Positions 6,813-42,044 of a stretch of 64,000 bases of DNA are shown in pieces (positions within the stretch are counted from its first letter, which is position 1; every line of letters begins with the position of its first letter). The notes below the pieces were generated by a model. The model was not told the origin of the DNA, ran no database searches, and saw nothing but the letters and a program-made list of their open reading frames with translations. The DNA is taken from contig NZ_PVZV01000007.1 of the NCBI RefSeq assembly GCF_002995495.1, forward strand, positions 62,001-126,000. Direction: 5' to 3'. Origin of the DNA: Actinocorallia populi. Its GTDB lineage: Bacteria; Actinomycetota; Actinomycetes; Streptosporangiales; Streptosporangiaceae. The translations under genes were made by a program, and so were the position numbers.

Positions 6813-7997
6813 TCATGGTCGGGCTGCGGATCCACCTCCGTCCGTCGTGCGTGAGGAGGTGTGCCGGGCTTCGGCGCGGGCGGCACGCTCGCGTTGGGCG
6901 GCGGCTTCGACGCGGGCTGCTTGGAGGTCGGTCTCGAGCCGTGCCTGCAGAGCCTGCGCGGCGGCGGCGCCGGCGCGGGTGTCGGCGAGGACGTTGCGGG
7001 CCTGCTCGGCTTCGGCCTGGGCGGCTGTGATCTGCGCGGCCGCCTGCTCCAAGGCGTTGCTCATCTGGGTGCGGACCTCGGCCGCTTCACGCCGTTCCTC
7101 CTGCAGGGCCTGCTCGGCGGCTTCGGCACGGGTCTGCTGGGCGTTGGCCTGACCGCGGGCATCGGCAAGCGCTTCGCGGGCCTGGATGAGGAAGCCGTGC
7201 AGCTCCGCGTTCTCGCGGGCGCGTGCCTCCAGCAGCACGGTGAGCTCGGTGATCTGCGTGCGGGCGCGCTCGGCGTCGTGGCGGCGTGCCTGCCGCGCCT
7301 CGACCAGGTCGGCGGCTGCCCTGTCACGTGCCTGCTCGGCGGCGGTGCGGGCGGTCTCGGCTGCGGTGCGGGCCTGCTGGTGGGCCTCGATGCGCTCGGC
7401 GGCCTCGGCTCGGACACGTTCGGTCTCGGCGCGGGCGTCCGCGGCCTCGCGTTCAGCGGCGGTACGCGCGGTCCGGTGGACGCGGGCGTCTTCGATGGCC
7501 CGTGCGGCGGCGGTCTCTGCGGCGTCGGCGCGGGCCTCGGCGTCGGCGGCGGCCTGCCGGGCGGTGCGGGTCTCGGCCTCCGCCCGCTCGACGCGGACCA
7601 GCGCTCCGGTCTGGGCCTTGTCGAGAAGGCCTGAGAGCTCGGTGAGCTGAGCCTGCAGGGCGGTGATGGCGGCGGGGACGTGCTGGGCGAGCGCCTCGGC
7701 CTGCTTGAGCGGCTCGTCGACGAGGGCGGTATCGGCGGCGCGGCGCTCCCTGCTGGCCTGGTCGGCGTGTGCCTTGCTGCAGTACTTGGGCGGGCGGCCG
7801 CGTCCGGCGGGCGGCAGCGGGAGTTCGCACCCGTCCAGGCCGCATACGCCGCGCGGTACGGGAACGGGAGAAACGCCGTTCGGCTCGGTCGAGGTCTGTT
7901 CTGCCGCAGCGTTGGCTTCAGTCACGCCTCCATCATAGCTTTCGCGCAATGCTCGCGCGTAATAATTAAGCGTATCGCGATAGGTGTAAGTAGTCAC
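6813..7997 (-). CDS. Zinc-finger plus long coiled-coil protein (copy 1)
   Basis: A protein of up to 394 residues. A short putative metal-binding module lies at about residues 52-77 (C52, C57, C73, H77, with GRGRPPKYC between), then about 290 residues of Ala/Glu/Arg-rich heptads with no Pro, predicted as one long coiled coil. GTG 7997 is the longest start; an internal GTG at residue 25 (VTEANAAAEQ) next to GGAGG is an alternative. It is divergent from a tyrosine recombinase with 44 bp between. A paralogue at 37657-38517 shares the zinc region and the local motif TGALxRVxxAE. Plasmid KfrA-like DNA-binding filament proteins are a structural analogy only. Function unknown. Confidence 0.7.
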   Translation of the reverse strand: MTTYTYRDTLNYYARALRESYDGGVTEANAAAEQTSTEPNGVSPVPVPRGVCGLDGCELPLPPAGRGRPPKYCSKAHADQASRERRAADTALVDEPLKQAEALAQHVPAAITALQAQLTELSGLLDKAQTGALVRVERAEAETRTARQAAADAEARADAAETAAARAIEDARVHRTARTAAEREAADARAETERVRAEAAERIEAHQQARTAAETARTAAEQARDRAAADLVEARQARRHDAERARTQITELTVLLEARARENAELHGFLIQAREALADARGQANAQQTRAEAAEQALQEERREAAEVRTQMSNALEQAAAQITAAQAEAEQARNVLADTRAGAAAAQALQARLETDLQAARVEAAAQRERAARAEARHTSSRTTDGGGSAARP

Positions 7998-8015
7998 AGA
8001 ATCTCACGTGCGGGC

Positions 8016-8043
8016 GTTTCACATAATTAGCATTATGTGAAAT
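8016..8043. repeat. dif-like inverted repeat at the recombinase start
   Basis: Arms TTTCACATAAT (8017-8027) and ATTATGTGAAA (8032-8042) are perfect inverted repeats around a 4-base centre TAGC. The inner blocks CATAAT-N4-ATTATG and the right flank ending AAAT coincide with the E. coli dif layout (20 of 28 positions by my hand count). The repeat runs into the recombinase start codon. It could be a recombination core site, an autoregulatory operator, or both. Confidence 0.6.
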
Positions 8044-9211
8044 GATGCGGCGCGTGGACGAACCCCTCTCCGGCACCCTGCTCACCCCGGCCGCAGCCGC
8101 CTCGCGCGCGAAAGTCGCCGTCACCGCCGACGGCCGCACGATCGACGTGCCCGCACCGATGATCGCCAGCGTCGGCGACATCGCCGGGCTGTCCCCCAAG
8201 CGCAAACGCGGAGACGGCGGCGAGGTGCCCGGCGCGGACGTGGACCTCGTCGACGCCCTGCCCCGCGACCTGGTCTGGCCGACCATCGCCGCCTGGCTGA
8301 CCACGGGCAAATCCGTCGCCACCCGCCGAGCCCGGCTGGCCGACCTGGCGGCCTTCCTACGCTGGCTGGACGCACACGCCCCCGGGCTGGCGCTGCTGGC
8401 CGTCACCGAGGACACCATCACCGGCTACCGCGAGAGCATCGCCGCCGGCACCGCCCTCGCCGGCGTCAAGGCCCCCGGCAAACCCCTGGCCGCGGCCTCG
8501 ATCGCCCGACGCCTGTCGAGCCTGGCGTCCTTCTACGCCTACGCCGTCCGGCGCGCGGGCCTGACCCGCAACCCCGCCGACGCCACCCTGGTCGAACGCC
8601 CCGAGGTCTCCGGCGCGGGCAAGACCCCGGCCCGCACCCGCGCCGAGGCCCGCGGCCTGCTGAGCGCGGCTGAGGCCACGTCCTTCGCCGAGCAGTACCC
8701 GATGGACGCGGCCGCGGTCGCACTGCTCCTGATGTGCGCGCTACGCGTCGGCGAGCTCGTCACGCTCACCGCCGGACAGGTGCAGACCGACGCTGGACAT
8801 ACCGTGCTGGTCTTCATCCGCAAAGGCGGCAAGACCGACCGCATCCCCGTCCCGCCCGACGCCCTCGCTCTGCTGCAGCCGCTGCTGGACGGCCGCCCCA
8901 AAAGCGCCCTGGTCTTCGCCCACGACGACGGCCGCCCCTGGAACCGGTGGCGCGTCACCACCGCACTACGAAGAACCGCCCACACCGCCGGCATCGATCC
9001 GGCCCGCCTGACCCCGCACACCGCCCGCACCACCGCCGCCACCGAACTCCTCGACGAAGGCGTCCCCATCGAAGTCGTCCAGACCCTCCTCGGCCACGCC
9101 TCCCCCGTCACCACCCAGCGCTACGACCGCGGCACCCGCCGCCTGTCCGGCCACGGCGCCTACCGCCTGGCCTCCCTCCTCACCGACCGCACACCCTCCC
9201 CCGACCAGTGA
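8042..9211 (+). CDS. Tyrosine recombinase/integrase, Xer-like (intact)
   Basis: A 389-residue site-specific recombinase. A SAM-like core-binding domain spans about residues 75-180 and the catalytic domain 195-375. All catalytic residues are visible: Arg235 (ALRVGEL), Lys261/264 (RKGGK), His326 and Arg329 (PHTAR), His352 (LLGHA) and Tyr361 (QRYDRG). The first 70 residues are an unusual basic/flexible extension. ATG 8042 or the adjacent ATG 8045 is the start; both lie at the end of the dif-like inverted repeat. It is divergent from the coiled-coil gene. A truncated paralogue lies at 35042-35794. No matching second att site was found in the window. Confidence 0.92.
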   Translation: MMRRVDEPLSGTLLTPAAAASRAKVAVTADGRTIDVPAPMIASVGDIAGLSPKRKRGDGGEVPGADVDLVDALPRDLVWPTIAAWLTTGKSVATRRARLADLAAFLRWLDAHAPGLALLAVTEDTITGYRESIAAGTALAGVKAPGKPLAAASIARRLSSLASFYAYAVRRAGLTRNPADATLVERPEVSGAGKTPARTRAEARGLLSAAEATSFAEQYPMDAAAVALLLMCALRVGELVTLTAGQVQTDAGHTVLVFIRKGGKTDRIPVPPDALALLQPLLDGRPKSALVFAHDDGRPWNRWRVTTALRRTAHTAGIDPARLTPHTARTTAATELLDEGVPIEVVQTLLGHASPVTTQRYDRGTRRLSGHGAYRLASLLTDRTPSPDQ

Positions 9212-27912: not shown

Positions 27913-28423
27913 CTACCCGGGGCTTTCTGGGTTCCCGTGGATGATGCGGTGGATGGTGGAGCGGCCGACGCTGTACTCGGTGGCCAGGTCGGCGAGGGAG
28001 ACCTGGCCTTCGGCGTAGCGGCGGCGGATGGAGTGGCGTGCGGGCTCGGGCAGTTTGGGTTGCTTGCCTTTGAGCTTGCCGTTCTTCTTCGCCAGGGCCA
28101 TGCCCTCGCGGGTGCGCTGGTGCCCGATCTTGGCTTCGAACTCGGCGACCATGGCGAGGGTCTGGAGGAACAGCCGGCCGAAGGGGTCGCTCCAGTCGTA
28201 GACGCTGGCGCCCAGGCCGAACTTGGTGACGGTGAACACCGTCCCAGACGGCGGCGAGGGCCTGGTCGAGGCCGGCCCGGTCGCGGCGGGTGGTGCCGGA
28301 GAATCCGCGGTCGATGTAGATGCGGTCCTGCGGGACGCCGAGCGCGAGCAGCTGCTCGGCCTGGATCACGACGTCCTGTCCGTCGGTGCTGCAGCGGGCG
28401 TAGCCGACCCGGGCTCCGTTCAC
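27913..28423 (-). pseudogene. Serine recombinase (resolvase/invertase), frameshifted and internally deleted
   Basis: The start at 28423 gives MNGARVGYARCSTDGQD with the catalytic serine, then DRIYIDRGFSGTTRRDRAG. After residue 60 the frame is lost, and a second minus frame (28239-27913) carries the rest: FGRLFLQTLAMVAEFE, then KNGKLKGKQPKLPEPARHSI and the HTH LADLATEYSVGRSTIHRII. About 30 residues around the usual DRLARS block are missing at the join (VFTVTKFGLGASVYDW). Inactive as it stands. Repeats lie directly upstream. Confidence 0.85.
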
Positions 28424-29332: not shown

Positions 29333-31819
29333 ATGGGACGCGAGACCATCGACGTGGTGGGGGCCCGCACCAACAATCTGCGGGACGTGTCCCTGAGCAT
29401 CCCCAAGGGGCGGCTCGTCGCGTTCACCGGGGTGAGCGGCAGCGGCAAGACCTCGCTGGCCGTCGACACCCTGCACAACGAGGCCCAACTGCGGTACTTG
29501 GAGGGGCTTTCGCCGTTCGTGCGGCAGTACATCACCCAGCGCAACCGGCCGAAGGTCGACCGCATCCTCGGGCTCGGCGCGACGCTCGCGGTCGATCAGC
29601 GGCGCCTGAACCGCAATCCCCGCTCCACGGTCGCGACGATCACCGGCATCGACGGCCACCTGGGGCTGCTGTATTCGCGCCTCCCCGCGATCGGAGCGGA
29701 CCCTGCCGCGGACGAAAGCAGGCATCTGACGACCGCCCACTTCGACCGCAACACGCCCGAAGGAGGCTGCGGGGACTGCCACGGGGTGGGCGGACGTTGG
29801 CAGGCCCAAGAGGACCTGGTCATCACCCGCCCGGAACTCCCGCTCTTCAAGGGAGCCTCGCCCTGGTACGCGAAATGGCGGTCAGGAGAGCATGCGTTCG
29901 TGCCCGCGCTCGCCGAGAAACGGGGTGTGGACCTCGATCTGCCGTGGCGGTCGCTGCCCGAGGAGTTCCGCCACTGCGTGCTGTACGGCACGGGCGACGA
30001 GACGGTCGAGGCGAGCGTCGACATACCGAACAAGAACGAGACGGCCCTGGTGACCTACACCTCCAGCCAGCCGCTGCGAGGTGCGCTCGCCGAGGTCGAG
30101 CGGGTGTTCGTGAACGCCCAGACGCCCAACGCCAAGCAGCGCTACCTCCCGTACATGCGCAAGCTGCCCTGCGGGGCCTGCGGCGGCAGCGGATACGACC
30201 AGGCGGCCCGGTCCGTGCGGCTCGGCGGCCTGACGTACCCGGACCTGCTCGAGGTGGAGGTGCGGGAGGTCCGCGACTGGGCGGAGCGTGTGGCCGACGG
30301 CCTGGACGCCCGGCAACGCGAGGTGGGCGAGCCGCTGCTGCAGGACCTCGGCCGCAGGCTCGGCATCCTCGACCGGCTCGGGCTGGCCCATCTCCAGCTG
30401 TCCCGGAGCGCAGCGACCCTCTCAGGGGGCGAGCTGCAGCGGACCCGGCTCGCCGCTCAGCTCAGCACCGAGCTGAGCGGCATCGTCTTCGTCCTGGACG
30501 AGCCCGGGACGGGGCTGCACCCGGCGGACAAGGCGCACCTGCTCGACATCGCCCTGGAGCTGCGCGAAGCCGACAACACCGTGCTTCTCGTCGAGCACGA
30601 CCCCGAACTCATCGCCCGGGCCGACTGGGTGATCGACATGGGGCCGGGCGCGGGCAGCCTCGGCGGCGAGGTCCTGGTGTCGGGGCCTCCCGCCGACGTG
30701 GCCGCCCACCCTGAGTCACTGACCGGCCGCTACCTGGCCGGTGAGGGGCCGCGGCTGCGCCGGACCCGCCGTCCGGTCGGGGACGGCACCGGCTGGGTGG
30801 AGCTGCACGGCCTGCACGCACACAACGTGACCGCGGACCTGGTGCGTTTCCCCGTCGGGCGGCTCACCTGCCTGACGGGGGTGAGCGGCAGCGGCAAGAG
30901 CAGCCTGCTCGGCGCGCTCGGGACGGGTGCCGAAGCGGCCCTCAGCAGAAAGGCGTCCGACACGGTGCGGAAGGTGAGCGGCCTCGACGGGTTCGGCTGG
31001 GTCGCCGTCGTCGACCAGGACCCGCTCGGACGGACACCGCGCTCCAACCCGGCCACGTACAGCAAGGCGTTCGACATCATCCGCGCTCTGTTCGCCGAAA
31101 CCGACGCGGCTCGTGAACGAGGAGTCGACGCCTCCTGGTTCAGTTTCAACACCGCGGGCGGCGGCCGCTGCGAGACCTGCACGGGCTACGGCCGAAAGCT
31201 GGTCGACATGCACTTCCTACCGGACGTGTGGGTGGTCTGCGACGCGTGCGAGGGCCGCCGGTACGAACCGGAGGCCTTGGAGATCAAATATCAGGGCCTG
31301 GCCATCGACCAGGTGTTGGAGCTGACCGTCACCGAGGCCGTCGAGCGATTCCCCGAACCCCGGCGGCTCGCGGAGACCTTGAGGGCGTTGGATCAGGTCG
31401 GGCTCGGTTACCTGCAGCTCGGCCAGAGCGCCACGGAGCTGTCCGGCGGTGAGGCGCAGCGGTTGAAGCTGGCGTCTGCGATCCAGCGTGGCGCCACGAG
31501 CCGCAAGGCCGGCCTCGTCGTTCTCGACGAACCCGTCTCAGGCCTGCACCCGTCCGACGTCCAGCGCGTGGTGGACGCTTTGGACGTGCTGCTGGACTCG
31601 GGCAACACCGTTGTCGTGGCCGAGCACGACATCCCCGTCGCCGCGTCCGCGGACTGGGTGATCGACCTGGGGCCGGGCGCCGGTCCGGACGGAGGAGCGG
31701 TGGTCGCGGAGGGTGCCCCGGACGTCGTCGCGGCGGCGGAGACCCCGACCGCCGGGTTCCTCCGCCGGTACGCGGCGGGCCTGCCGCTCCTGGAGCGTCA
31801 CCCGGCCTTGGCGGGGTGA
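29333..31819 (+). CDS. UvrA-like ATPase, short paralogue
   Basis: An 828-residue twin ABC ATPase of the excinuclease UvrA family, versus about 950 for housekeeping UvrA. Two Walker A motifs (GVSGSGKTS near 34, GVSGSGKSS near 519), two signatures (LSGGELQRTRLA, LSGGEAQRLKLA) and two Walker B motifs (FVLDEPGTGLHP, VVLDEPVSGLHP) are intact. The C-terminal zinc finger CETCTGYG...CDACEGRRY is complete. The N-terminal insertion is reduced (CGDCHGVGGRW), so UvrB contact is probably altered. Similar stand-alone UvrA paralogues (DrrC type) give resistance to DNA-binding antibiotics. Translationally linked to the PPOX gene. Confidence 0.93.
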   Translation: MGRETIDVVGARTNNLRDVSLSIPKGRLVAFTGVSGSGKTSLAVDTLHNEAQLRYLEGLSPFVRQYITQRNRPKVDRILGLGATLAVDQRRLNRNPRSTVATITGIDGHLGLLYSRLPAIGADPAADESRHLTTAHFDRNTPEGGCGDCHGVGGRWQAQEDLVITRPELPLFKGASPWYAKWRSGEHAFVPALAEKRGVDLDLPWRSLPEEFRHCVLYGTGDETVEASVDIPNKNETALVTYTSSQPLRGALAEVERVFVNAQTPNAKQRYLPYMRKLPCGACGGSGYDQAARSVRLGGLTYPDLLEVEVREVRDWAERVADGLDARQREVGEPLLQDLGRRLGILDRLGLAHLQLSRSAATLSGGELQRTRLAAQLSTELSGIVFVLDEPGTGLHPADKAHLLDIALELREADNTVLLVEHDPELIARADWVIDMGPGAGSLGGEVLVSGPPADVAAHPESLTGRYLAGEGPRLRRTRRPVGDGTGWVELHGLHAHNVTADLVRFPVGRLTCLTGVSGSGKSSLLGALGTGAEAALSRKASDTVRKVSGLDGFGWVAVVDQDPLGRTPRSNPATYSKAFDIIRALFAETDAARERGVDASWFSFNTAGGGRCETCTGYGRKLVDMHFLPDVWVVCDACEGRRYEPEALEIKYQGLAIDQVLELTVTEAVERFPEPRRLAETLRALDQVGLGYLQLGQSATELSGGEAQRLKLASAIQRGATSRKAGLVVLDEPVSGLHPSDVQRVVDALDVLLDSGNTVVVAEHDIPVAASADWVIDLGPGAGPDGGAVVAEGAPDVVAAAETPTAGFLRRYAAGLPLLERHPALAG

Positions 31820-34867: not shown

Positions 34868-35086
34868 GTGAACCGGCTTCCTGACCACCTGAGAGACTCG
34901 GCGACCACGCGCACCGATGCAGCCGCACAGCGAGCCCGAGATGGACTCAAGAAACTCGTCGACGCGCGTCGGCCGATTAATTTCGCTGCGGTCGCCCGGG
35001 AGGCTGCGGTGAGTACCGACTTCCTCTACCGGCACGTTGAACTACGCGCGCTGATCGAACAGCACCGCACCAAGACGACCGGTCAA
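34868..35086 (+). pseudogene. DUF6262-type transposon accessory protein, N-terminal fragment
   Basis: ATG 34868 begins about 72 codons resembling DUF6262/TnpC-like proteins of Tn554-style elements: DGLKKLVDARRPINFAAVAR then EAAVSTDFLYRHVELRALIE. After about 35086 the frame runs antisense into the recombinase remnant and the coiled-coil C-terminal half is missing. The native gene normally follows two tyrosine transposases, none of which remain intact here. Confidence 0.65.
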
Positions 35087-35794
35087 CCTGCTCGGCGACC
35101 AGCACTGGACAACCACCCCACCGACTCCACCTCGGCTGCCGTACGCGCACTGGTGAGGTTCCCCCGTTCGACGGCCGGGCACGGGGATGTGCGAGAGCGA
35201 GCCGTGCTTGCGCTGCAGCACCACCCGCAGCTGCCCGTCGCTGACCTCGAACGAAGACGGCCGCAGCCCGCACACCTCGCCCGCCCGCGGCCCCAGTACC
35301 AGCAGCAGCCGCACCGCCACCGATTCCGCCAGCCCGTACCGGTCGACGAAATCCTCGCTCTCCGCGGCCGTCAGCATCGCCGCCGCCTGCTCGCGGCTGA
35401 ACGCCGGCGTCTTGCCCACCCGCGCCAGCCGCGGCCGCGCCACCATCTCCGGATCCGCCGGGTTGGCTGTCAGTCCCGCCCGCCGCATCGCATACCCGTA
35501 GAACTTCCGTAGGGACGACAGGCGGCGCGCCATGCTCGCGGCCGCCAGCGGCTGGCCCGGGGTGCGTACCCCGGCCCGCGCCGAGCCCTCCAGCAGTGAG
35601 TTGCGGTAGTCGACCACGACGTCCTCCCGCACCGCCAGCAGCCCCATGCCCCGTGCGTGCACCCGAAGCCACAGCACGAATGCCGCCAGGTCCGCCAGGT
35701 GGGCCTGCCGCGTATTGACCTGCTGGGAGTCCGCCAGCCACGCCGCCACCGTCACCCACACCGGCACCCGCGGCAGCCCGTCAATCAGCCTCAC
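35042..35794 (-). pseudogene. Tyrosine recombinase (copy 2), C-terminal catalytic half lost
   Basis: Homologous to the recombinase at 8042-9211 over about 207 residues: LADLAAFVLWLRVHA, PLAAASMARRLSSLRKFYGY, RRAGLTANPADPEMVARP and the catalytic Arg in LGPRAGEVCGL. After SHIPVPGR near 35173 the similarity stops. The His-x-x-Arg, His and Tyr residues are gone, replaced by sequence that joins the DUF6262 fragment. Cannot recombine DNA. It lies 35 bp after the pentapeptide gene on the same strand. Confidence 0.85.
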
Positions 35795-35829
35795 GAGGCT
35801 CTGGTTTCAGCTCCTCGGCGCACCGGTGG

Positions 35830-37443
35830 TCAGCGTTTGACCCGGTTGCGGATGGCGAGCAGGGAGAAGCCCAGGAACAGCGGGCCCAGCAGCCGAGCGG
35901 CGAGGTTGATGTACTTGCCGGGGTCGGTCAGCTCGGCGTCGGGAGCGCGGAAGATGACGGCGTTGAGGGTGATCTCGACGGCCTTGCCGATCCGGTCGTC
36001 GAGTTTGCGGATGGGCTTGCTCTGGTGGACGGTCACCGCGATCGGCTGCGCGCCAGTGGGCGCGGTGAGGGTCCCGTCGGCTTTGAAGTCCTTACCCTTG
36101 ACCGGAAACCCCCACAGGGTCAGGGCGATGACGGTGGCCGCGACGACGAGAGCGAGGCAGGCCAGCGCCCGTCTCACCCGCAGTGCGTACCCCGAGGTCG
36201 CCCAGTACAGGAACAGCAGCCACCGGTCCGGACGACGATCGGTGCGGGCGGCGGCGCGGCGCATCTCCATCTCGCCGTAGTAGAAGTCCGCGGCGCCGGG
36301 CTCGTTCTTGCCCTCCTCGAACGCCTTGCGCAGCTGCCGGTAGAGCACCTGTACCCGCTCGGGTCCGACCACGTCTACCCTCTCGGGCGCCGCCGTCCAG
36401 CCCCGGCCCGCCCGCCCGCCTAGGCCGGCGCGCCAGTGGTGCTCCTCAGCCAGCACCTGCCGGTCCCCTGAGGGGTCCCAGGCGAAGACGCAGCGGCCGT
36501 CCAGGACGATCTCATCCAGCCGGTGGATCCCGGCGAACCTGCACGCGCTCAGGTCGACGTCGGTGAGCACGAGCCGCTCGACATCCGCCCCCCGCAGCGA
36601 GACCATCCGCACCCCGCCGTCCGGGCGGGACAGGTGAGTCTCGGAGATCCCCTCAAACGGCTGGGCCATCCCGTGCACGCTCAACGGTCCCGCGCACACC
36701 GCATATCCTGCGTCCACCGCGGTCCCCCGCAACCGCAGCACCACCCGGCCGTGCGACCTCAACCGCACGAAGGACAGTTCACCGACGGCGCCCTCCACCA
36801 CCAGTTCCACCTGCACCTCGGCACGATCGAAGACCAGCCTGTCGGCGACGCACCGAAACACCGCATCCCCCAGCAACCGCGACCCCTCGAACAATCCCTT
36901 GCTGAAGGTCGCTTCGTTGAAGTTGGCGTTTTGGCTGAAGGCCGCTTTGCTGAAGCGGGCGTCTTGGGTGAAGGCCGCCCTGTCGAAGTGGGCGTCTTGG
37001 GTGAAGGTCACCCCGCCGAAGTGGGCGTTTTGGGTGAAGGTTGCCCTGTCGAAGTCGGCGTGCCCGCTGAAGGTCGCCCCGAAGAAGTCGGCGCGCCCGC
37101 TGAAGGTCGCTTTACTGAAGTTGGCGTCTTGAGTGAAGATCGCCATGTCGAAGTTGGCGTCCTGGGTGAGGGCCGCCCCGCCGAAGTCGGCTTTACCGAA
37201 CCGGGGGGAGCCGTCGTCAGTGACACTGTCCAGTAGCTGGTCCAGTAGGGCCGCGGTAAAGACGACGTTGCGAGCGTCGATCGTCGCTCCGGGGGCGAGC
37301 CCATCGAGGTAGGCGGCGAGATTGTCGTTCGGCAGATGTGCCAGGCAGCGGCCTCCGGCGGCGACCGGCGCCCCGCACAGGTCCCCGGGTTCGGCGCCTG
37401 GGCGCAGGGACGGCTCGGCGCAGGCGGGAGGCGGAGGGGTCAT
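35830..37443 (-). CDS. Pentapeptide-repeat protein with C-terminal membrane segments
   Basis: A 537-residue protein. An N-terminal Cys-containing segment with the pattern CAEPSLRPGAEPGDLCGAP is followed at about residues 80-190 by some 20 A(D/N)F-type pentapeptides (ANFDMAIFTQDANFSKATF), predicting a right-handed beta-helix. A middle domain follows (to about 400), then FYYGEMEMRRAAAR, and two membrane helices near the end (LACLALVVAATVIALTLWG and ARLLGPLFLGFSLLAIR). The fused FYYGEMEMRR plus TM layout is common to actinobacterial pentapeptide proteins of unknown role. ATG 37443 has GGGAG upstream. Divergent from zinc-finger/coiled-coil copy 2. Confidence 0.85.
   Translation of the reverse strand: MTPPPPACAEPSLRPGAEPGDLCGAPVAAGGRCLAHLPNDNLAAYLDGLAPGATIDARNVVFTAALLDQLLDSVTDDGSPRFGKADFGGAALTQDANFDMAIFTQDANFSKATFSGRADFFGATFSGHADFDRATFTQNAHFGGVTFTQDAHFDRAAFTQDARFSKAAFSQNANFNEATFSKGLFEGSRLLGDAVFRCVADRLVFDRAEVQVELVVEGAVGELSFVRLRSHGRVVLRLRGTAVDAGYAVCAGPLSVHGMAQPFEGISETHLSRPDGGVRMVSLRGADVERLVLTDVDLSACRFAGIHRLDEIVLDGRCVFAWDPSGDRQVLAEEHHWRAGLGGRAGRGWTAAPERVDVVGPERVQVLYRQLRKAFEEGKNEPGAADFYYGEMEMRRAAARTDRRPDRWLLFLYWATSGYALRVRRALACLALVVAATVIALTLWGFPVKGKDFKADGTLTAPTGAQPIAVTVHQSKPIRKLDDRIGKAVEITLNAVIFRAPDAELTDPGKYINLAARLLGPLFLGFSLLAIRNRVKR
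36895..37185. repeat. Tandem 15/30-bp repeats encoding the pentapeptides
   Basis: DNA of the pentapeptide region is near-identical in 30-bp units (each containing GAAGTNGGCGTNTTGGGTGA-like sequence on the plus strand). The low divergence between units points to recent expansion or gene conversion inside the coding region. Confidence 0.6.
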
Positions 37444-37595
37444 CGCGGTGGGCTCCCTTTGCTGGTGCGATCCGTGGTCAGACGTCCCGGCGCACGCGGG
37501 TGGTTCCCCGGCGGCGGCGCGGCACCCGTATGCAGGCACCCGCTCCGGTGACCGGTGACATATCTAGGAATATGGCACCGACACTGCGTGGGATG

Positions 37596-37614
37596 GGTTT
37601 CAGGTTTTGAAACC
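37596..37614. promoter_or_regulatory. Inverted repeat GGTTTCA-N5-TGAAACC
   Basis: A perfect 7+7 inverted repeat between the divergent pentapeptide and coiled-coil genes, 42 bp before ATG 37657. Candidate operator or protein-binding site, in the same relative position as the dif-like repeat next to copy 1. Confidence 0.5.
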
Positions 37615-37656
37615 GAAACCAAGGTTCTCGATTTCTGGGTGAGAAACCTCGCCAGC

Positions 37657-38517
37657 ATGGTCCGCGTGGACATATCCCAGGACGGCCGTGCTGAGCACGG
37701 CGAGGAGGCCTCGAGCGAGCAGCCGCAGACGATCCGCACCGGGTTCTGCAGCGTCTGCGCCGGCCCGTTCGAGCACTCCCCCGGCCGCCGCGGCGGCCGC
37801 CCGCCCACCAAGTGCCCCGACTGCCGCGACGGCCGTACCTCCGTCGTCGGCGCCGACCCGCTCCTGGCCGTCCTGCGCCACGCCCAGTCCCTGCGCGAGT
37901 CGCTCGCGCCTGACCTGGAGCGCACCCTGCACACCCTCACCGCACTGAACCAGGCCCTGGAGAAGTCCGAGACCGGCGCCCTGGCCCGGGTGCGCACCGC
38001 CGAGAAGAGTGCCGACGACGCCCGCGCCACCGCCGCCCAGGCCCTGCGCGACCGCACCACCGCCGAAGACCGCGCGGCCGAGGCCGAGCGCACACGCAAA
38101 GAGGGCCTCGGCCGGGCCGACCGCGAGGTGGCCGCCGCCCAGGCCGCCCAGGACAAGGCCGAAGACCGCGAGGAGCAGGCCCGCGCCGAGGCCGGCCGGC
38201 ACCTGGAAGCCCTGGGGGAGGCCAAGGCGAACCTGGCCGCCGCCCAGAGCGCGCGGCAGGACGCCGAAACCGCCCGCGCCCAGGCCCAAGCTGCCCAGGA
38301 GCGCGCCGCGGCCGCCGAACGCGACACCGCGATCGCCGTCGCCGCGCGGGACGAGGCCCGGCGCCAGGTCGCCGAGGAGCGCGGGCTCCTGCGCGCGGAG
38401 GTCGAGCGGGGCATGGCCGCAGAGCAGCGGGCAGCGGCCGTCGAAGACGAACTCACGAAAACACGCGCGAGGATCCGGCAGCTCGAGACGCAAGAAGAGG
38501 AACGCCCGCGGGAGTGA
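37657..38517 (+). CDS. Zinc-finger plus long coiled-coil protein (copy 2)
   Basis: A 286-residue paralogue of the protein at 6813-7997. An N-terminal four-Cys module C31-x2-C34...C53-x2-C56 contains GRRGGRPPTKC, parallel to GRGRPPKYC of copy 1. Then comes TGALARVRTAEKSADDARAT, aligned with TGALVRVERAEAETRTARQA, and about 190 residues of uninterrupted Ala/Glu/Arg heptads. ATG 37657 is chosen because upstream sequence to 37555 contains an inverted repeat and reads as a promoter. It lies near a degraded tyrosine recombinase, as copy 1 lies near an intact one. Likely DNA-binding filament or partition-like protein; not demonstrated. Confidence 0.72.
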   Translation: MVRVDISQDGRAEHGEEASSEQPQTIRTGFCSVCAGPFEHSPGRRGGRPPTKCPDCRDGRTSVVGADPLLAVLRHAQSLRESLAPDLERTLHTLTALNQALEKSETGALARVRTAEKSADDARATAAQALRDRTTAEDRAAEAERTRKEGLGRADREVAAAQAAQDKAEDREEQARAEAGRHLEALGEAKANLAAAQSARQDAETARAQAQAAQERAAAAERDTAIAVAARDEARRQVAEERGLLRAEVERGMAAEQRAAAVEDELTKTRARIRQLETQEEERPRE

Positions 38518-41717: not shown

Positions 41718-42044
41718 GAACAGAAAACTGCAGAGTCGCAGCAGGCCACCCGCGACGCCGCAGCATCAGCCGCCGAGGCCGCAGCCGCACTGGCCACCAG
41801 CCACGCCTAGCTTGAAGCCGCTCACGCAGCCCGCCAGGCCGCCGAAGACCGCGCCGCCGCAGCGGCCGAGCGCGCGGCTGGCGCGGAACGCGAGAGGACC
41901 GCCGCCCAGCAGGCGGCGGCCGTCGCTGACGCCGCGCTCCTGACCGCTCAGGAGGAGGTCCGCGCCCTGCACACCGAGGCAGCCGAGCTGCGTGAGCGCG
42001 CGCCCGCGCTGAGGCCCTCGCCCGGCCCGCTGATTGAGCGGTAA
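41718..42044 (+). pseudogene. Third coiled-coil remnant with in-frame TAG
   Basis: A plus frame of about 108 codons is pure Ala/Glu/Arg heptad sequence (ATRDAAASAAEAAAALATSH, stop, LEAAHAARQAAEDRAAAAAE, then TAQEEVRALHTEAAELRERA). The TAG is at 41808-41810. Style and composition match the C-terminal coiled coils of the two zinc-finger proteins in this window. No zinc module or start is present. Confidence 0.55.

Follow-up and report, generated by a model that had tools for sequence, protein, structure and literature searches.

A candidate three-part resolution module with a Xer-like tyrosine recombinase, a dif-like core and a zinc-head helper in Actinocorallia populi

At cer and psi, plasmid dimers are resolved by XerCD acting on a core, with accessory sites that are bound by the architectural proteins PepA/ArgR. 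For Tn4651-type resolution, a TnpS core and a TnpT accessory site have been described (in excerpts of PMC4619425), and the roles of TnpS and TnpT of Tn4651 are also covered in excerpts of PMC7157771. KfrA proteins, according to the abstracts of PMC7821693 and PMC7783346, have a DNA-binding head, a coiled-coil tail and a repetitive operator, and form filaments. In the present study we analysed a stretch of 64,000 nucleotides from A. populi (the window), which lies on contig 7 of a genome of 8.25 Mb in 25 contigs. Here a gene for a protein with a Cys/His head and a long helical tail (the helper) is divergent from a gene for a Xer-like tyrosine recombinase. With moderate confidence we read the locus as a three-part site-specific resolution module, made up of the Xer-type recombinase, a dif-like core and the divergent helper with repeats of its own. 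Among the matches listed in a limited literature search, in the portions of text returned, none described such a pair in actinobacteria. The parts of the locus are as follows, in positions of the window.

6813-7925 (longest open reading frame to 7997), minus strand: zinc-head/long-helix protein of 370 residues, the proposed accessory protein (helper); from the open reading frame, relatives and alignment
7767-7844, minus strand: Cys/His head C28-x4-C33-x15-C49-x3-H53, presumed to bind zinc and DNA; from the pattern in alignment A4
7963-7992: accessory element, an imperfect inverted repeat TAATTAAGCGTATCGC/GCGATAGGTGTAAGTA (75%), apparently the decayed ACGCG array of genus relatives
8017-8042: dif-like core TTTCACATAA-TTAGCA-TTATGTGAAA with perfect palindromic arms, the proposed crossover site; from palindrome search and conservation
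8042-9211, plus strand: Xer-like tyrosine recombinase of 389 residues, catalytic residues present; from the open reading frame, Pfam and NCBIfam profiles and alignment to XerD 1a0p

The recombinase matches the Pfam family Phage_integrase (E 4e-29) and a SAM-like N-domain. In the alignment to XerD 1a0p, residues R235, K261 or K264, H326, R329, H352 and Y361 are all in place, and we take these to fill the catalytic roles. With the Phage_integrase fold and the R-K-H-R-H-Y residues, the protein belongs among the Xer-like tyrosine recombinases; a preliminary description of this DNA had called it fully equipped, which the alignment appears to justify. Its scores stay below the NCBIfam equivalog cut-offs for XerC (109.7 against 335 bits), XerD (108.6 against 330) and XerS (53.3 against 267). 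The back-to-back gene pair proposed in the same description is real, with divergent open reading frames at 6813-7925 on the minus strand and 8042-9211 on the plus strand. The 44-bp spacing given for it relied on a GTG at 7997. In two genus relatives the frame opens only 14 and 3 codons upstream of the start, so the helper likely begins at GTG 7925, and the intergenic gap is therefore 116 bp.

This gap contains TTTCACATAATTAGCATTATGTGAAA at 8017-8042, which had been overlooked. It has the shape of dif, with two arms ending in TAA/TTA on either side of a 6-bp centre. The window holds one match at up to 3 mismatches, and 100 shuffles gave none. Relatives of the recombinase are present in 24 of 297 family genomes (E<=1e-40), and the same palindrome lies within ~1.5 kb at 17 of the 30 recombinase loci listed, 16 of them at up to 4 mismatches and L025 at 6; three of the 17 (L018, L034 and L037) are copies of one repeated plasmid unit. 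Across the 17 loci and plasmid pAGRA3207_1, which also bears the core, the arms are conserved and the centre varies. In the wider regions examined the core is upstream of the recombinase start, mostly within ~60 bp; it is farther away in L054 and L057, where the distances depend on our own gene calls. Near a more distant recombinase we also observed a perfect palindrome of another core type, GTCTCCATAATACTGATTATGGAGAC (L036:2524-2549), with a CATAA-N6-TTATG centre.

Plasmid pAGRA3207_1 is circular (18.7 kb, with a ParA gene) and carries the recombinase and core without an adjoining helper. The same holds for contig 1 of genome G014, where each of the three pieces examined (L048, L049 and L050) has one core. 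This contig of 62,024 bases is composed of ~2.8 tandem copies of a 22.2-kb unit that are 99.7-99.8% identical, and is either a true multimer or a circular plasmid whose assembly ran past its end. A plasmid-borne recombinase with its core is compatible with multimer resolution. At five core-bearing loci without a helper we further observed a conserved protein of ~108-115 residues, encoded downstream of the recombinase and perhaps an alternative partner.

L041:15265-15606, same direction as the recombinase: small conserved protein
L042:4086-4412, same direction as the recombinase: small conserved protein
L043:2962-3309, same direction as the recombinase: small conserved protein
L045:1568-1915, same direction as the recombinase: small conserved protein
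L046:9287-9631, same direction as the recombinase: small conserved protein

The phage-integrase fold, a site that adjoins the gene and a patchy distribution would also suit the integrase and regulator of an integrative element, with the palindrome serving as attP. We consider this improbable. There is one core per locus, any second match in the wider loci has at least 7 mismatches, and the single core of the A. populi genome (at up to 3 mismatches) leaves no attL/attR pair to bound an element. Furthermore, no element genes are widely shared within 6 kb, and the same single core is found on a plasmid.

The helper had no match in Pfam or NCBIfam (E<=1) or in PHROGs (E<=0.001), and a KfrA_N domain in particular was absent (Pfam, E<=1). 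A profile of its head searched against the PDB returned merely coiled-coil look-alikes by name (best E 0.024). The Cys/His module that had been noticed in this protein, C28-x4-C33-x15-C49-x3-H53, is borne out by its relatives: all 26 rows of alignment A4, that of the window among them, keep the pattern C-x2/4-C...C-x3-H. The tail has 285 proline-free residues and is 32% Ala. It had been described as about 290 residues of unbroken heptads, a claim that we could not support, as the 3.5-residue periodicity is no higher than in shuffles (p 0.3-0.4). A single-sequence AlphaFold model predicts helices at residues 51-153, 159-313 and 317-357. Structure prediction, which had been suggested as a check on the Cys/His module, was uninformative for the head, since residues 1-49 fall below 50 in predicted local distance difference test (pLDDT) score.

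A zinc-head profile built from the 26 rows of A4 located the helper at 60 places in 49 of 318 genomes (E<=1e-15), and all 60 were examined. One helper reading frame was scored per locus, genes of the relatives came from our own codon-bias caller, and recombinases were detected with hidden Markov models built on these loci. A divergent tyrosine recombinase adjoins the helper at 27 of the 60 places, or at 24 without three weak matches (L152, L158 and L160; E 5e-12 to 1e-11, with little identity to the references). By arithmetic from 53 phage-integrase hits in five genomes, ~0.1 such neighbours would be expected by chance. The proposal that the two genes form a functional unit is thus supported, as their placement is not random. 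Additionally, a dif-like palindrome is present at 33 of 60 helper places against ~0.2 expected (0.003 per 700 bp in the rest of the same loci). The palindrome filter took a 9+6+9 arrangement with YAA/TTR-type inner ends in 700 bp around the helper gene start; it misses L057 (2 mismatches, outside the 33) and includes the unusual cores of L152, L159 and L160. Recombinase and palindrome occur together at 20 places, the palindrome alone at 13, and neither at 20.

Within 6 kb of the helper, the recombinase is the only neighbour that is commonly shared, at 26 of 60 places, and each time it lies upstream of the helper; the families that rank after it reach 6 of 60, on mixed sides. Since nothing else is commonly shared, the helper loci are not one syntenic place that was jointly inherited. 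Widening the helper-head search to the order returned the same family only, among the matches listed. Searches with the recombinase gave one distant locus of a metagenome-assembled genome in a contig collection and no relatives in phages, and a plasmid collection yielded one relative of the recombinase and none of the helper.

Loci of the closer subtypes have a second array of repeats between the core and the helper gene, and the two halves of the locus vary separately. Two main kinds of core were distinguished, core 1 of the CACAYAA type and core 2 of the GATAA type. Seven recombinases stand beside core-1 helper loci, of which six are 48-65% identical to that of the window and all seven 29-33% identical to that of L096. 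Conversely, ten of the 11 recombinases beside core-2 helper loci are 62-88% identical to that of L096, and all 11 are 32-36% identical to that of the window. The core therefore tracks the recombinase clade. The array motif, for its part, appears to follow the zinc-head subtype in the closer subtypes. Type A heads (C-x4-C) occur with ACGCG/CGCGT/CGCGAA repeats whether the core is core 1 (3/3 loci) or core 2 (17/17), and type B heads (C-x2-C) with core 1 have TCCG[AT] repeats in 7/7. The remaining seven rows comprise one type A head with a third core (2 A and 1 B match), four unclassified heads (4-6 A, 0 B) and two rows in which neither motif is numerous.

These motifs were chosen on 25 viewed loci. 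Among loci unseen at that time, A matches outnumber B matches in 10 of 11 heads of the KAHADQASR type, a subset defined after the result was known. All new type A loci together give 11 of 17 with more A and 5 with more B; the new unclassified heads give 7 of 11 and 3, and the type B loci of this set, which are more distant, favour neither motif (3 of 7 with more A, 3 with more B). The window's genus combines a type 1 core with a type A head. Because the array motif tracks the head subtype and the core tracks the recombinase clade, we propose that the helper binds the array and the recombinase binds the core. Of the roles that the preliminary description had offered for the coiled-coil protein, a DNA-binding accessory factor is thus the best supported, and for a directionality factor we found no evidence.

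A recombinase is not adjacent to the helper at 33 of the 60 places. The 13 places with a palindrome alone, and the 20 with neither partner, would suit a helper that is mainly an autoregulator or a KfrA-like, partition-like filament and whose adjacency to the recombinase is regulatory; the KfrA plan outlined above, with head, coiled-coil tail, repetitive operator and filaments, also fits such a role as far as the abstracts describe it. This explanation seems to us improbable, as the core is often kept where a recombinase is missing, and in genomes with a core-1 helper the recombinase is encoded elsewhere. In three genomes (G252, G168 and G038) helper, array and core share a contig but no recombinase of the window's clade adjoins them, and one of that clade (48-56% identical) is encoded on another contig, itself without a core; G168 additionally has a weak recombinase-like fragment ~4 kb from the helper locus. 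Hence the clade is represented in 10 of 10 genomes with a core-1 helper locus, adjacent in seven and elsewhere in three. These split modules support the use of helper and core with a recombinase that acts from afar.

Several observations weigh against the resolution module. A second core is absent from the A. populi genome at up to 3 mismatches, and a chromosomal substrate is therefore not evident. The core is missing at 13 of the 30 recombinase loci listed, and the 20 helper places with neither recombinase nor palindrome must be counted here as well. The array of the window is degenerate, with 2 ACGCG-type matches against 8 in each of two genus relatives. When the accessory region was tested for exact inverted repeats, p was 0.98 for the window and below 0.05 in only 6 of 25 loci (L039, L052, L057, L090, L099 and L145), and the case for an accessory element consequently stands on motif counts and not on symmetry. 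The distant head variants (six type A and seven type B among the new loci) lack the motifs, common descent of the rows explains part of the link between motif and head, and both the motifs and the palindrome filter were picked after examples had been viewed.

The mechanism we propose for the resolution module, in which the helper aligns two cores and the recombinase exchanges them, is drawn by analogy with TnpS-rst-TnpT. We infer metal and DNA binding for the zinc head, which would bind the accessory repeats (about 7950-7995), some 40-60 bp from the core, and bridging for the helical tail, which would join two helper-repeat complexes. The recombinase would bind both TTTCACATAA arms and exchange strands around the 6-bp centre. 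Recombination would be limited to properly aligned sites, whether these are direct repeats within one molecule or lie on a replicated dimer, and the two promoters of the gap may be autoregulated. The outcome of such recombination would be the resolution of dimers or multimers of circular DNA.

In relatives the helper clusters near the replication terminus. On five of five single-contig chromosomes (helper at E<=1e-15; three are of one genus, and G100, single-contig with a weak match of 8e-7, was left out) it lies at 0.496, 0.493, 0.477, 0.494 and 0.499 of the circle from dnaA, and of the 49 remaining phage-integrase hits on these chromosomes 7 have a position of 0.475 or more (Fisher p 0.00025, relatedness ignored). 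A canonical dif, GATAATGNNCATTATGTYAAGT (up to 3 mismatches), is present in 35 of 49 helper genomes. Helper and dif share a contig in 11 of them, at distances of 20, 39, 43, 43, 50, 50, 66, 78, 82, 83 and 104 kb, and nine of these 11 have the recombinase or core; in the remaining 24 the best dif match is on another contig. Replacement of canonical dif by the module was rejected, as the two are found in the same genomes.

Such clustering would be expected of a second dif system dedicated to the terminus, acting on sister chromatids beside canonical XerCD/dif. We regard this as unlikely. The helper is found in only 49 of 318 genomes, short of the near-universality in the clade of a chromosome dif/Xer system, and canonical dif and XerC/XerD-like genes, the latter in the A. 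populi genome, are present as well. In that genome the dif match (contig 6) and the module (contig 7) would be separated by at least ~265 kb even if the two contigs were direct neighbours. Five helper copies, judged by contig ends, are >107 kb from dif (G252:C4, G323:C28, G334:C20, G337:C72 and G324:C67); all have distant heads (L140, L150, L149, L153 and L151, respectively) and neither recombinase nor core. Recombinase-only loci are not confined to the zone (0.04 from dnaA in G228, 0.33 in G173, 0.46 in G268), and three of the five chromosomes represent a single genus. Tn917 has a terminus preference. Tn3 transposases are biased as well, with 8 of 9 places at 0.473 of the circle or beyond (14 hits in G001, G098 and G130, neighbouring fragments merged), so the zone may act as a general sink for foreign DNA, an explanation that competes seriously with a terminus function. 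The terminus preference of transposons treated in PMC5371812, in the part consulted, is that of Tn7 and IS200/IS608, not Tn3. A separate observation concerns three species, at about 4.5-9.1 kb in each of the loci L161 (G085), L162 (G130) and L163 (G197), where canonical dif has another Xer-like recombinase gene at a distance of 3-4 kb and a different dif-like palindrome, CGGACAGAA-N6-TTCTGTCCG, is nearby, perfect in two; this is possibly one more terminus-linked recombination system.

A wider proposal, which we offer as tentative, is that the locus belongs to an undescribed class of terminus-associated Xer systems, whose interchangeable recombinase/core and helper/array halves are shuffled between plasmids and chromosomes and whose dedicated coiled-coil filament protein would allow replicated DNA near the terminus to undergo dif-like recombination beside canonical XerCD/dif.

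The window contains a second, broken set of similar genes.

35042-35794, minus strand: truncated recombinase paralogue, 51% identity over residues 67-272, C-terminal catalytic similarity lost
35830-37443, minus strand: pentapeptide-repeat protein inside the broken module (Pentapeptide_3, E 1e-20)
37555-37578: weak core-like palindrome GTGACATAT-CTAGGA-ATATGGCAC, 1/9 arm positions mismatched, may be chance
37657-38517, plus strand: second zinc/coiled-coil protein with a C-x2-C...C-x2-C head, E 4e-4 to the first copy

This region, 35042-38517, seems to be another module of this kind, different from the first and decayed. The inner bases of its palindrome differ from the standard core, GAAACC repeats are visible by eye, and the second zinc/coiled-coil protein has a 3.5-residue periodicity above that of shuffles (p <= 0.002). 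The preliminary description had reported the recurrence of this protein type close to a degraded recombinase paralogue, and both genes are indeed there, with the correction that the pentapeptide-repeat gene separates them. Its third coiled-coil remnant at 41718-42044 is a compositionally similar, Ala-rich and probably helical frame, but one with an in-frame stop. Pentapeptide-repeat genes are directly beside this recombinase type in the broken copy and also on pAGRA3207_1 (L011:12140-12886). Far from the module, a short open reading frame at 27913-28239 on the minus strand groups with serine-resolvase-like proteins of L046 and L054.

If the module works as proposed, the combination of recombinase, dedicated coiled-coil helper and core with accessory sites came about on at least two occasions, by origin or by reassembly, and with DNA-binding heads that are unrelated. 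The module would also provide small orthogonal recombination modules whose halves were apparently swapped in nature, making helper function directly testable, and would raise the question of why many circular chromosomes of actinobacteria have such modules close to the terminus.

The preliminary description knew of no described system with this pair, which is too strong a statement. The TnpS/TnpT-rst systems (Tn4651 of pWW0, TnXax1 and TnXocp1) likewise combine a tyrosine recombinase with a divergent DNA-binding coiled-coil helper, though neither protein is a close relative of those described here. On pWW0 the features are as follows, where tnpT and tnpS are the names we presume for genes that the record gives as 'DNA-binding protein' and 'site-specific integrase'.

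29463-30461, minus strand: TnpT, 332 residues, KfrA_N head (E 2.6e-26)
30494-30513: accessory palindrome
30590-30614: core-like AAAACGG...CCGTTTT, found by eye
30642-31613, plus strand: TnpS

In both systems the core palindrome is toward the recombinase gene and the accessory palindrome toward the helper gene; the accessory repeats of our module are clear in relatives and decayed in the window. In contrast, TnpT has a KfrA_N head in place of the Cys/His head, which has no KfrA_N match, and the helper shows no similarity to TnpT. TnpS resembles the window's recombinase at the level of the superfamily only (24%, E 1e-4), and the Tn4651 core sequence differs from that of the window. TnpS/TnpT is also part of a Tn3-family transposon, and 7 of the 26 genomes searched (G001, G274, G234, G149, G049, G098 and G240) do have PF01526 transposases or fragments at ~7 kb or less from the helper, as would be expected if our module were the TnpS/TnpT-like cointegrate resolvase of such an element. 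We judge this highly improbable: it was rejected for the three neighbours that could be bounded (G234, G274 and G149; G001, G049, G098 and G240 are unbounded), where the helper lies outside the terminal repeats each time and two of the elements carry a serine resolvase, and the window has no transposase match, the nearest on the contig being ~67 kb away. Since head domain, homology and transposon context all speak against membership, the module would work like TnpS/TnpT without being one.

KfrA of IncP-1/IncU plasmids is similar in its DNA-binding head, long coiled coil and repetitive operator, but its head domain is another one, and the abstracts of PMC7821693 and PMC7783346 mention no recombinase partner. 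XerS/difSL and XerH/difH are single-recombinase systems, whereas here canonical dif and XerC/D-like genes coexist with the module, which adds a dedicated helper. Finally, the accessory factors at cer and psi are host enzymes or regulators, and the corresponding part in the present module would be played by a dedicated divergent coiled-coil protein.

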